From: Prochlorococcus sp. AG-409-O23
GTDB lineage: Bacteria; Cyanobacteriota; Cyanobacteriia; PCC-6307; Cyanobiaceae
DNA length: 64,000 nt
NCBI GenBank assembly: GCA_003215355.1
Contig: QCKL01000002.1
Location: forward strand, 46,531-110,530
Reading direction: 5' to 3'
Numbering within the stretch: the first letter of the stretch is position 1; each line of letters opens with the position of its first letter. The notes under the pieces were generated by a model, which saw only the letters and a list, made by a program, of their open reading frames with translations, made no database searches and was not told the origin of the DNA. Below, piece by piece: positions 3,859 to 57,292 of the stretch. A program made the position numbers and the translations under genes.

Positions 3859-5058
3859 TTGCCAACTGGGCCTATGACGCAACTGGAAACGCGCACGGAG
3901 CCAATGGTTGTGAACTTTGGCCCCCATCATCCTTCGATGCATGGTGTGTTGAGATTGGTTGTGACACTGGATGGAGAAGACGTTGTTGATTGCGAACCTG
4001 TTATTGGTTATCTGCATCGGGGGATGGAGAAAATCGCAGAAAACCGTACAAACGTCATGTTTGTGCCATACGTCAGTCGCATGGATTATGCGGCTGGCAT
4101 GTTTTATGAAGCGATAGTTGTTAATGCTCCAGAACGACTGGCCAATATTTCTGTACCAAAGAGAGCAAGTTATATCCGAGTGCTGATGCTTGAATTAAAT
4201 CGCATAGCTAATCATCTCCTTTGGTTAGGTCCATTTCTTGCTGATGTGGGTGCGCAAACTCCTTTCTTTTATATCTTTCGAGAAAGGGAAATGATATATG
4301 ACCTTTGGGAAGCTGCTACTGGCCAACGATTAATTAATAATAATTACTTTCGAATAGGTGGCGTGGCTTGTGATTTGCCATGGGGATGGCTTGAGAAATG
4401 TAGAGACTTTTGTGATTGGTTTGGTCCCAAGATTGATGAGTACGAGAAATTAATTACTAATAATCCGATTTTTCGTCGCCGTATTGAGGGTTTGGGTTCT
4501 ATTGGACGTGAGCAAGCTATTAATTGGAGCCTTTCTGGACCAATGCTTCGAGCTTCTGGCGTCCCATGGGATTTGCGCAAGATTGATCACTATGAATGCT
4601 ATGACGACTTTGATTGGGAGGTGGCATGTGAGAAGGAAGGTGATTGTTATGCCAGATATCGGGTTCGTATAGAGGAAATGCGGCAGTCCTTAAAGATTCT
4701 TAAGCAGGCTTGCGAAATGATCCCTGGCGGTCCAACAGAAAACCTTGAGGCACTTCGTACCTCTGAGGGTAAGGCGAGTTCTTTTACAGGTTTTGATTAT
4801 CAATACGTTGCCAAGAAAGTTGCGCCTACTTTTAAGATCCCTGATGGTGAGTTGTATACCCGGTTGGAATCGGGAAAAGGTGAAATTGGTGTCTTCATTC
4901 AAGGCAAGAATGACGTCACTCCTTGGAGATTCAAAATTCGTGCTGCAGACTTAAATAACCTGCAGATTCTTCCTCATATTTTGAAGGGGGCCAAGGTTGC
5001 AGACATCATGGCTATTCTTGGGTCAATTGACGTCATTATGGGTTCAGTGGACCGTTAA
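3859..5058 (+). CDS. ndhH: NAD(P)H-quinone oxidoreductase subunit H (49 kDa)
   Basis: [46 protein letters not shown], typical NdhH. Confidence 0.97.
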
Positions 5059-36410: not shown

Positions 36411-36731
36411 CAGATAAGGCTCCAATATTTAGGTAGTAAAGCTTTGGCAAGTTTTTGAAGGTACAGGTGTTGTTTACTTGAACTTAACTCTGCTTGATTC
36501 TCTTTTGAAGGTAGAGAGGTGAATCTCATTTGGCATTTTTATAATTACTAGCCAATTTGATATGAAGCCAAATTTTCAGAGCTTGATTAATAGTTGCTAG
36601 TAAATTACTTTTATAATCTGATTATTTTTTCCTCTCTTAGGGATGCAAGCAAATTGGCTTATATGACAGTTGTAGGAGCGGCATGAAAGAAATTCTTTTG
36701 GCTTTATAGAAGATATATTTATTTTGTGTGA

Positions 36732-36822
36732 GGGGTGCGGATACTTCTTTCAGGGTCGAAACAAGGAAAGACTCCTGAATAGTCTCCACCCATTTAAGCC
36801 CTGCCTTAGGCAGGGCTTTTTT
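36732..36822 (+). ncRNA. Candidate structured small RNA with intrinsic terminator (Yfr2/Cyano-1-like architecture possible)
   Basis: GGGTGcGGATAC...GTCTCCACCC and TTCAGG...CCTGAA nested stems enclosing GTCGAAACAAGGAAAGAC, then GCCCTGCC TTA GGCAGGGC TTTTTT terminator. The T-run is only on the + strand, and no + strand CDS lies upstream. TATATT at 36714 is a plausible -10. Confidence 0.6.
36799..36822 (+). terminator. Rho-independent terminator of the putative sRNA
   Basis: GCCCTGCC-TTA-GGCAGGGC followed by TTTTTT. Confidence 0.8.
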
Positions 36823-36823
36823 A

Positions 36824-36875
36824 ATTCCTTTTCAAAAAAAAGCCGGTCTTATTACCGGCTTTTTTGAAAAGGAAT
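36824..36875 (-). terminator. Long terminator for the ribosomal-protein operon, potentially bidirectional
   Basis: ATTCCTTTTCAAAAAAAAGCCGGT-CTTATT-ACCGGCTTTTTTGAAAAGGAAT; T-run after the GC stem on both strands; 3' of rplL. Confidence 0.85.
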
Positions 36876-36907
36876 CATTGGTGTGAATAATTCAACTGAG
36901 GAGTTGT

Positions 36908-54889: not shown

Positions 54890-57292
54890 ATGGACGCAGA
54901 AATTTCAGGTACTAGTGATGCCTTTCAAGAGACCCTTGAGTTGTTGGAATGGCCACGACTTTGCGACCACCTCTCGACATTCGCAAGTACAAGTCAGGGT
55001 TGCGTTCATTGTAAGAACTTACCTTTGCCTTCTGACTTGGCTACTAGCCGATTGCGTTTGGCAGAGACATTGGAAATGCATGCTTTAGATGCAGCTCATG
55101 ATGGAGGCGTTACTTTTCAAGGAATCCATGATTTAGAAGCTCTTTTGGCGCGTTGCGTGAAGGGAGGGATCGCTTCTGGTGAGGAGCTATTAAAAGTTGC
55201 GGAGACTCTCGCAGCTGCAAGGCGGTTACGAAGGCAAATTGATGATCCTGAGATGCGGCCTGTTACTACCTTCCTCTTGTTTGATTTGGCAACTCTTCCT
55301 GATTTGGAAAAACTCTTGAGGTTTGGCCTTGAAGAAGGAGGTCGAGTTGCAGATCGAGCCAGTGAAAGGCTCGCTCGATTGCGTGGGCAATGTCAACGCT
55401 TATTTGTTGAACGAAGGGATCTTTTGCAGGAGCTTGTGCGGCGATTTGGTTCAAAATTGCAGGACACAGTGATCGCGAATAGAAATAACAGACCTGTTTT
55501 GGCTTTGAAGGCAGGTGCTGTTGCTCAGCTCTCTGGGATTGTGCATGACAGCTCGGCATCAGGCAGTACAGTTTTTTTTGAACCTCAGCCTGTTATTCCA
55601 CTTGGTAACCGAATAGCTGAACTTCAGGGATACATTCTTGAAGAGGAGCAACTACTTCTCACTTTGTGGAGCCAGAAAATTGGTGAGAATTATGACTCGT
55701 TGCAGCATCTTGGCAAAGTCATGTTGCAACTTGATGTTGCATTGGCTCGTGCTCGTTATGGCGAATGGTTAGGAGGTGTGCCTTGCAGGTTTGATGAGAA
55801 TCCCAATGCTTCTTTTACCTTTGATGAATTACGCCATCCTTTACTAGTTTGGAAGGAGCGCCATAAGCATGGGGAGATAGTCATTCCAGTCACTTTAGGA
55901 GTCCCTTCCAAGGTAAAAGTAGTTGCGATTACAGGACCTAATACTGGGGGTAAAACTGTCACTCTTAAGAGTGTTGGGTTGGCAGTTCTTATGGCTAGGG
56001 CTGGACTCTTAATGCCATGTATTGGTACACCCACTTTGCCTTGGTGTGATCAAGTTTTAGCTGACATAGGAGATGAGCAATCACTGCAACAGAGCCTTTC
56101 AACCTTTAGTGGCCATCTAATTCGTATTAATCGAATTCTTCACGCAGTCGCTGCAACTCCTGGAACAGTTCTAGTCCTCTTGGATGAAATTGGCGCAGGG
56201 ACTGATCCCTTAGAGGGGACCGCCTTGGCCATAGCACTATTAAAGACATTCGCTGATCGAGTAAGGCTGACTATTGCGACAACTCACTTTGGGGAACTGA
56301 AGACCTTGAAATATAGCGATTCACGTTTTGAGAATGCTTCTGTTTCTTTCGATAGTGAGACTCTCTCTCCTACGTACTCACTTCAATGGGGAATACCTGG
56401 TAGGAGTAATGCTCTCGCAATCGCTGGAAGATTAGGACTTGACTCTGTGGTACTAGAGAGGGCACAAGAGTTGCTTAGGCCTACTGGCGGAGAAGACGTT
56501 AATAACGTAATTGCAGGTTTGGAAAATCAAAGGATTCGCCAGCAGGCAGCGGCTGAAGCTGCTGCAGAGTTATTAGCGCGAACTGAAATTCTCCATGAGG
56601 AGTTGTTAATGCAGTGGCAACGTCAATCTAAGCTCTCAGAAGAAGCGTTCGAAGGTAGACGTAGACAACTTGAAGCCTCCATTCATGAAGCCCAGCAAGA
56701 GGTTAGTGAATTGATTAAGCGCTTAAGGACTCAAGGAGCTGATGGTGAGACGGCTAGACGAGTAGGACAACAGTTACGCCAAATGGAAAAAGAGAATTCT
56801 CCTAAGCTCCGACAAAGAACCCCAGACGGCTGGTCACCACAGGTTGGGGAACAAATAAGGTTGCTTGCTTTAGGTAAGGCTGGTGAGGTGCTTTCCATTT
56901 CTGAAGATGGCTTGCAGCTCACTGTGCGTTGTGGAGTTTTTAGGAGTACAGTCAATTTGAGTGGGGTGGAGAGCCTTGATGGACGGAAGCCAATTCCTCC
57001 AGACCCTGTAGTAAAGATCAATTCCCGCACCATTTTCGGGCTTGGCACAAAGATTCGGACAGAAGCTAATACTGTTGATGTGCGTGGGTTAAGGGTTCAT
57101 GAAGCGGAAGTGGTAGTTGAAGAGTATCTGCGGAAAGTGAATGGCCCCTTGTGGATTATTCACGGGGTCGGGACTGGCAAGCTCAAGCGAGGATTGAGGC
57201 AATGGCTAGAGAGTCTCACCTATGTTGAAAAAGTCAGCGATGCCAATTCAAAAGACGGTGGAGCAGGTTGCAGTGTGGTTTTGCTGCGTTAA
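54890..57292 (+). CDS. mutS2: MutS2 family ATPase/endonuclease
   Basis: ITGPNTGGKTVTLKSVGLAVLMARAGL, LLDEIGAGTDPLEG, C-terminal Smr domain VDVRGLRVHEAE...IIHGVGTGKL. Start at 54890. Confidence 0.95.
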   Translation: MDAEISGTSDAFQETLELLEWPRLCDHLSTFASTSQGCVHCKNLPLPSDLATSRLRLAETLEMHALDAAHDGGVTFQGIHDLEALLARCVKGGIASGEELLKVAETLAAARRLRRQIDDPEMRPVTTFLLFDLATLPDLEKLLRFGLEEGGRVADRASERLARLRGQCQRLFVERRDLLQELVRRFGSKLQDTVIANRNNRPVLALKAGAVAQLSGIVHDSSASGSTVFFEPQPVIPLGNRIAELQGYILEEEQLLLTLWSQKIGENYDSLQHLGKVMLQLDVALARARYGEWLGGVPCRFDENPNASFTFDELRHPLLVWKERHKHGEIVIPVTLGVPSKVKVVAITGPNTGGKTVTLKSVGLAVLMARAGLLMPCIGTPTLPWCDQVLADIGDEQSLQQSLSTFSGHLIRINRILHAVAATPGTVLVLLDEIGAGTDPLEGTALAIALLKTFADRVRLTIATTHFGELKTLKYSDSRFENASVSFDSETLSPTYSLQWGIPGRSNALAIAGRLGLDSVVLERAQELLRPTGGEDVNNVIAGLENQRIRQQAAAEAAAELLARTEILHEELLMQWQRQSKLSEEAFEGRRRQLEASIHEAQQEVSELIKRLRTQGADGETARRVGQQLRQMEKENSPKLRQRTPDGWSPQVGEQIRLLALGKAGEVLSISEDGLQLTVRCGVFRSTVNLSGVESLDGRKPIPPDPVVKINSRTIFGLGTKIRTEANTVDVRGLRVHEAEVVVEEYLRKVNGPLWIIHGVGTGKLKRGLRQWLESLTYVEKVSDANSKDGGAGCSVVLLR

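Follow-up and report, generated by a model that had tools for sequence, protein, structure and literature searches.

The gap between rnhA and rplL in Prochlorococcus sp. AG-409-O23 contains a gene for Yfr2, an ordinary member of a known family of small RNAs. When the window (the whole 64-kb stretch of DNA that was analysed) was scanned with Rfam, a single gathering-level match was obtained, RF01701 (Cyano-1), at 36722-36790 on the plus strand, with a score of 49.6 bits against a gathering score of 41 and with the full model (1-69) covered. The initial annotation had guessed at Cyano-1, which is the Yfr2 family, and the covariance search bore out that guess. Yfr2 is a small regulatory RNA, known already across nearly all cyanobacteria. 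What the analysis shows directly is the family match, the conserved structure and location, the terminator, the upstream box and the complementarity of the 5' end to the genome's own Yfr1. The best explanation of the whole, to which I assign a probability of roughly 0.9, is that of a Yfr2 gene for which drive by a GntR regulator, titration of Yfr1 and Yfr10 and mRNA binding by the loop may be carried over from work on MED4 and Synechocystis. Other weak Rfam matches (MIR1514, csRNA, rimP and others) lay far under their gathering scores, mostly on terminator hairpins, and were set aside. The features of the locus are as follows.

36665-36682, plus strand: conserved upstream box GACAGTTGTAGGAGCGGC, a candidate GntR site; 14 of 16 box positions matched, 45 nt ahead of GTGAGG
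36714-36719, plus strand: candidate -10 element TATATT, from inspection of the sequence; the same place is AT-rich in relatives
About 36724-36821, plus strand: predicted yfr2 transcript of about 98 nt; RF01701 match, 5' end by analogy with MED4, 3' end at the T-run of the terminator
36725-36736, plus strand: 5' motif TGTGTGAGGGGT, complement of the Yfr1/Yfr10 motif; GTGAGG.GT hardly varies among the 23 sequences, and a duplex with the Yfr1 of this genome is predicted
36733-36791, plus strand: outer stem GGGGT/ACCC plus GGAT/GTCTCC, from the fold; 72% of cells paired
36749-36780, plus strand: inner hairpin TTCAGGGTC/GACTCCTGAA with the 12-nt loop GAAACAAGGAAA; 95% of cells paired, both-sided changes in 5 of 9 pairs
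36796-36821, plus strand: intrinsic terminator of yfr2, GCCCTGCC-TTA-GGCAGGGC-TTTTTT, from a pattern scan and covariation
About 36823-36876, no strand assigned: long and almost perfect inverted repeat, each strand of which has a T-run, from inspection

The spacer is about 480 nt long and lies between rnhA (PF00075) and rplL (PF00542/PF16320), as initially described, and the flanking genes, rnhA and rplL-rplJ-rplA, are all on the minus strand. The stems and the terminator that had been read from the sequence are all present by sequence, fold and pattern scan, and the terminator is indeed confined to the plus strand, the minus-strand stem running into TTAAATGG. The element itself was rightly recognised; its start, however, was set about 8 nt late, the RNA being expected from near 36724, and a start at 36732 therefore cuts off part of the functional, conserved 5' end UGUGUGAGG. 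The revised start is an analogy with MED4, to which one of the sampled genomes (G151) corresponds by coordinates: its RF01701 matches coincide with the published Yfr2-Yfr5 genes, and all four model starts fall 2 nt ahead of the 5' ends printed for these genes (PMC1242208, Table 2). The MED4 members are 89-95 nt long (PMC1242208), and the window RNA, which likewise ends in a Rho-independent terminator, is predicted at about 98 nt for a family length of about 90 nt. The window genome (1.38 Mb, 69% complete) contains two more RF01701 matches, one of 47.3 bits on contig C21 and one of 33.2 bits, below the cut-off, on contig C4, and is thus multi-copy, as is usual in the family.

Two other readings of the spacer were rejected. 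A mechanical ORF at 36724-36867 (47 aa, TTG start) spans the RNA and both hairpins, and a cis-acting leader is discounted because no plus-strand gene comes after the RNA. The exposed Yfr1/Yfr10-type motif ACUCCUCACAC was not found in the window RNA, which carries its complement; the genome's Yfr1 is located elsewhere.

The predicted fold of 36731-36822 has an energy of -40.5 kcal/mol (z = -4.65), and none of 200 shuffled sequences was equally good. The terminator supplies much of this energy. Folded alone, the 5' domain is only moderately stable (z = -1.5), and the case for it is therefore carried by covariation and the Rfam score, not by energy. Since its minus strand folds about equally well, it is the Rfam match, together with the terminator and the upstream box, that decides the strand. 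Conservation was assayed by scoring an alignment of 23 sequences from the rplL-rnhA site against the window's own structure. Overall, 88% of cells were paired, and double changes occurred in 13 of the 28 pairs, in contrast to a mean of 7.6 in shuffled alignments, only 1 of 500 of which reached that number. The covariation score was 0.276, as opposed to 0.164 after shuffling (0/500) and to 0.143 at most when the structure was slid along the alignment, a control that somewhat favours the structure because the latter derives from the window itself. The conservation and covariation of the stems on which the initial annotation had made its proposal depend are therefore found in these 23 sequences. 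Support is unequal among the three helices: the terminator (97% of cells paired, both-sided changes in 5 of 10 pairs) and the inner hairpin (95%) are recovered by RNAalifold when no structure is given, and the outer stem, the weakest-supported (72%), is not found by this procedure in the same alignment. Written over 36722-36822, the outer stem reads GGGTG.GGAT/GTCTCC.CACCC. The inner hairpin displays a purine-rich loop of 12 nt on a bulged stem, with a single bulged base beside the third closing pair, and in the 23 sequences the loop and its closing GTC/GAC are almost invariant. Length, single-stranded 5' UGUGAGG, 12-nt loop, bulged stem, terminator and multiple copies per genome are all shared with the Yfr2 family (RF01701; MED4 Yfr2-Yfr5).

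Directly past the yfr2 terminator, the inverted repeat may end transcription from both sides and so serve yfr2 as well as the convergent rplL operon. A possible bi-directional terminator of rplKAJL was described in MIT9313 and WH8102 (Axmann 2005, PMC1242208). Two T-run hairpins standing back to back, together with the fact that all linked copies, among the matches listed, are convergent with the rplL operon, could mean that the element only insulates transcription, as a pair of terminators separating two convergent units, and yields no RNA itself. That is very improbable: conservation and covariation reach well past the terminator into the 5' motif, the loop and the inner stem, the upstream box is conserved as well, and with rnhA on the minus strand nothing upstream but this Yfr2 RNA needs a plus-strand terminator.

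The upstream box has the consensus GACAGTTGAANNAGCGCC (GACAGTTgaa..AGCGcc) and lies 44-48 nt upstream of GTGAGG in most same-site copies; this consensus was derived from the very copies that were scored with it, and the box scores are therefore descriptive. A clear box was not found in three of the relatives (L034, L135 and L143). Promoters of marine picocyanobacterial Yfr2 genes carry the CGRE1 motif, which is bound by the GntR regulator PMM1637 (PMC6778093), and the window genome encodes one GntR-domain protein. The box at 36665-36682 is a likely candidate for the place where the GntR regulator of yfr2 binds, and I infer by analogy that it may correspond to CGRE1. A search of the window genome with a loose form of the box gave three occurrences, two of them ahead of yfr2 copies, one of which had been in view when the loose form was chosen. 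The third occurrence, GACAGTTATATCAGTG, is on the minus strand of contig C5 at 56718-56733 (L170), where no yfr2 match was reported, and may be due to chance.

The window genome has its own Yfr1 gene (RF01116, 58.7 bits). The stretch GUGUGAGGGGU of the window RNA can form a duplex with ACUCCUCACAC, the Yfr1 motif, in which a single pair is G-U, the window motif reading GGGGU where a perfect complement would read GGAGU, so that G-U takes the place of A-U. The predicted gain on binding Yfr1 is -14.7 kcal/mol, in contrast to about -8 for shuffled 5' ends (equalled in 0/300 in one run and 3/200 in another). In the predicted fold the 5' motif is mostly unpaired as far as 36732, and the final 4-5 bases of the conserved stretch UGUGUGAGGGGU are paired in the free RNA. 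As this 3' part sits in the outer stem, pairing with Yfr1 requires the stem to open.

What such pairing might achieve is suggested by work on MED4, in which Yfr1 and Yfr10 were pulled down with Yfr2, RNase E cleaves Yfr2 unless Yfr1 or Yfr10 is bound, and the level of Yfr2 increases in nitrogen starvation and at high light; in E. coli, Yfr2 restores the expression of a Yfr1-repressed reporter (PMC6778093). By analogy, a GntR-family regulator would drive the window yfr2, probably in nitrogen starvation and high light. The single-stranded 5' end would bind Yfr1 and Yfr10-type sRNAs at their CUCCUCACAC motif, titrating them away from their mRNA targets, the stretch GUGUGAGG being the part proposed to act against Yfr1-dependent repression. 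RNase E may clip the 5' end, and the exposed loop GAAACAAGGAAA might bind mRNAs in trans, as the MED4 pull-down data suggest. The most likely role, again by analogy, is that of a GntR-controlled sRNA that would titrate Yfr1-type RNAs and also act in trans through its loop.

The comparison of rplL and its flanks covered 29 relatives, each standing for one genus of the same family. In 21 of them the spacer between rplL and rnhA contains a yfr2 copy that converges on rplL: 18 were found by Rfam and three (L137, L140 and L143) by motif, and the latter also match a model built from the same-site copies, to which, however, they had contributed. Synechococcus lacustris (L034) has a copy at this site too. 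In G070, which is Prochlorococcus MIT9313 by coordinates, a copy at 2204960-2205028 on the minus strand converges on rplL (2204429-2204821, plus strand) at the same site; unlike that of the window it has the loop GAAACAAGGCAA, and at 40.2 bits it lies just below the Rfam cut-off. No copy was found at the rplL-rnhA site in the other 8 of the 29 or in Prochlorococcus sp. AG-402-N21, the closest by identity (75%) among the loci found with the window rnhA, and the spacer there is usually just 60-80 nt; nor does G151 (MED4) have one beside rplL. Loss in these streamlined relatives implies that the rplL-linked copy is not essential there. Among 20 more distant cyanobacteria, Rfam gave no gathering-level match beside rplL. 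One of these genomes, G261, from outside the family, carries both motifs in a copy next to rplL that scores 40.1 bits, just under the cut-off; nothing convincing was found at that place in the other 19. In about ten relatives (L122, L129, L131 and L136-L142), with rplL-rnhA spacers of about 1 kb, yfr2 and rnhA are 700-970 nt apart instead of 130-400 nt, and an extra gene therefore probably lies between them.

The copies fall into two types according to the closure of the loop. Whereas all 23 same-site copies are closed by GUC/GAC, the 32 other copies inspected (L002-L033), none of which is near rplL, are closed by GUG/CAC, as is usual in the family; 30 of these 32 are among the best Rfam scorers, which makes them a biased sample. 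A Yfr1-type motif, CTCCTCACAC, lies upstream on the same strand in 24 of the 32, within 200 nt in 23 of those 24, an arrangement already known from the MED4 tandems Yfr10-Yfr2, Yfr12-Yfr4 and Yfr18-Yfr5 (Steglich 2008, PMC2518516). By contrast, the window copy is solitary at rplL, with no tandem Yfr1-type motif. On the minus strand of contig C21, at about 4850-4925 (L147 1442-1514), the Yfr1-type motif ACTCCTCACAC is found in the hairpin CGACACTCCTCACACAAGTTTGTCG, followed by a terminator-like GAGGGCGCCCTTTTT, and the second yfr2 copy of the genome comes directly after it on that strand. Judged from its sequence this element is probably an sRNA of the Yfr10 type, arranged in tandem as in MED4, and it is predicted to bind the window Yfr2 with a gain of -14.8 kcal/mol. 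Among the matches listed, and in those sampled genomes where the listed position of the yfr2 copy could be set against that of rplL, at least 72 GUC-type copies in at least 71 genomes converge on rplL from 83-330 nt away; at least 22 GUC-type copies are located elsewhere.

The lower Rfam score of the window copy relative to many others, together with the loss of the rplL-site copy in relatives, could be taken to mean that it is decayed or silent. I give this very little credence, since every helix is intact, as are the two motifs, the terminator and the upstream box, and the lower score follows from a loop of GUC/GAC type where the Rfam consensus has GUG/CAC. Another possibility is that the rplL-linked copies, while of Yfr2 type, form a separate, positionally fixed lineage that regulates mRNAs mainly through the loop and does not titrate Yfr1. 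The strict partition of loop types, the many convergent copies beside rplL and the solitary layout all point that way, but the Yfr1-complementary 5' motif is conserved as well as the loop at the rplL site, GUC-type copies also occur away from it, and the GUG/CAC set is biased towards top Rfam scorers; I therefore consider it unlikely. The GUC/GAC form recurs in Synechocystis PCC 6803, where the RACE primers for Yfr2b and Yfr2c (GAGTCGAAACAAGGAAA) match the loop of the window, although those genes lie upstream of slr0199 and sll1477, with shared start sites, and not at rplL (Voss 2009, PMC2662882). This suggests, with no tree behind it, that GUC/GAC is the older form. A tentative extension, less likely than not, is that one Yfr2 orthologue of the picocyanobacteria has been inherited vertically at a fixed place between rplL and rnhA (GUC/GAC, also beside rplL in G261), and that it differs in function from the GUG/CAC copies, which would be mobile and move together with Yfr10-type RNAs.

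The ordinary Yfr2 gene identified here fills an otherwise empty rnhA-rplL spacer. In the papers searched, Yfr2 was not found mentioned together with rplL or rnhA, though the 2009 article by Gierga et al., reportedly a survey of the Yfr2 family, may record the location. What is mildly new is the conserved rplL-side address of one copy, Yfr2 itself being known; fixed location and loop subtype are a modest refinement on the family. The Rfam Cyano-1 model leans to GUG/CAC, and the scores that it gives to the GUC/GAC form are close to the cut-off or lower, as with the 40.2 bits in G070 and the 40.1 bits in G261. Published statements place yfr2 genes at unconserved loci (PMC6778093, PMC1242208), a view that fits the GUG/CAC copies but not the rplL-linked copy. 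Contrary to that view, one line of Yfr2 genes can be followed through the genes that flank it, which would allow orthologous Yfr2 copies to be named across Prochlorococcus and Synechococcus and the question to be asked of which copy does what.
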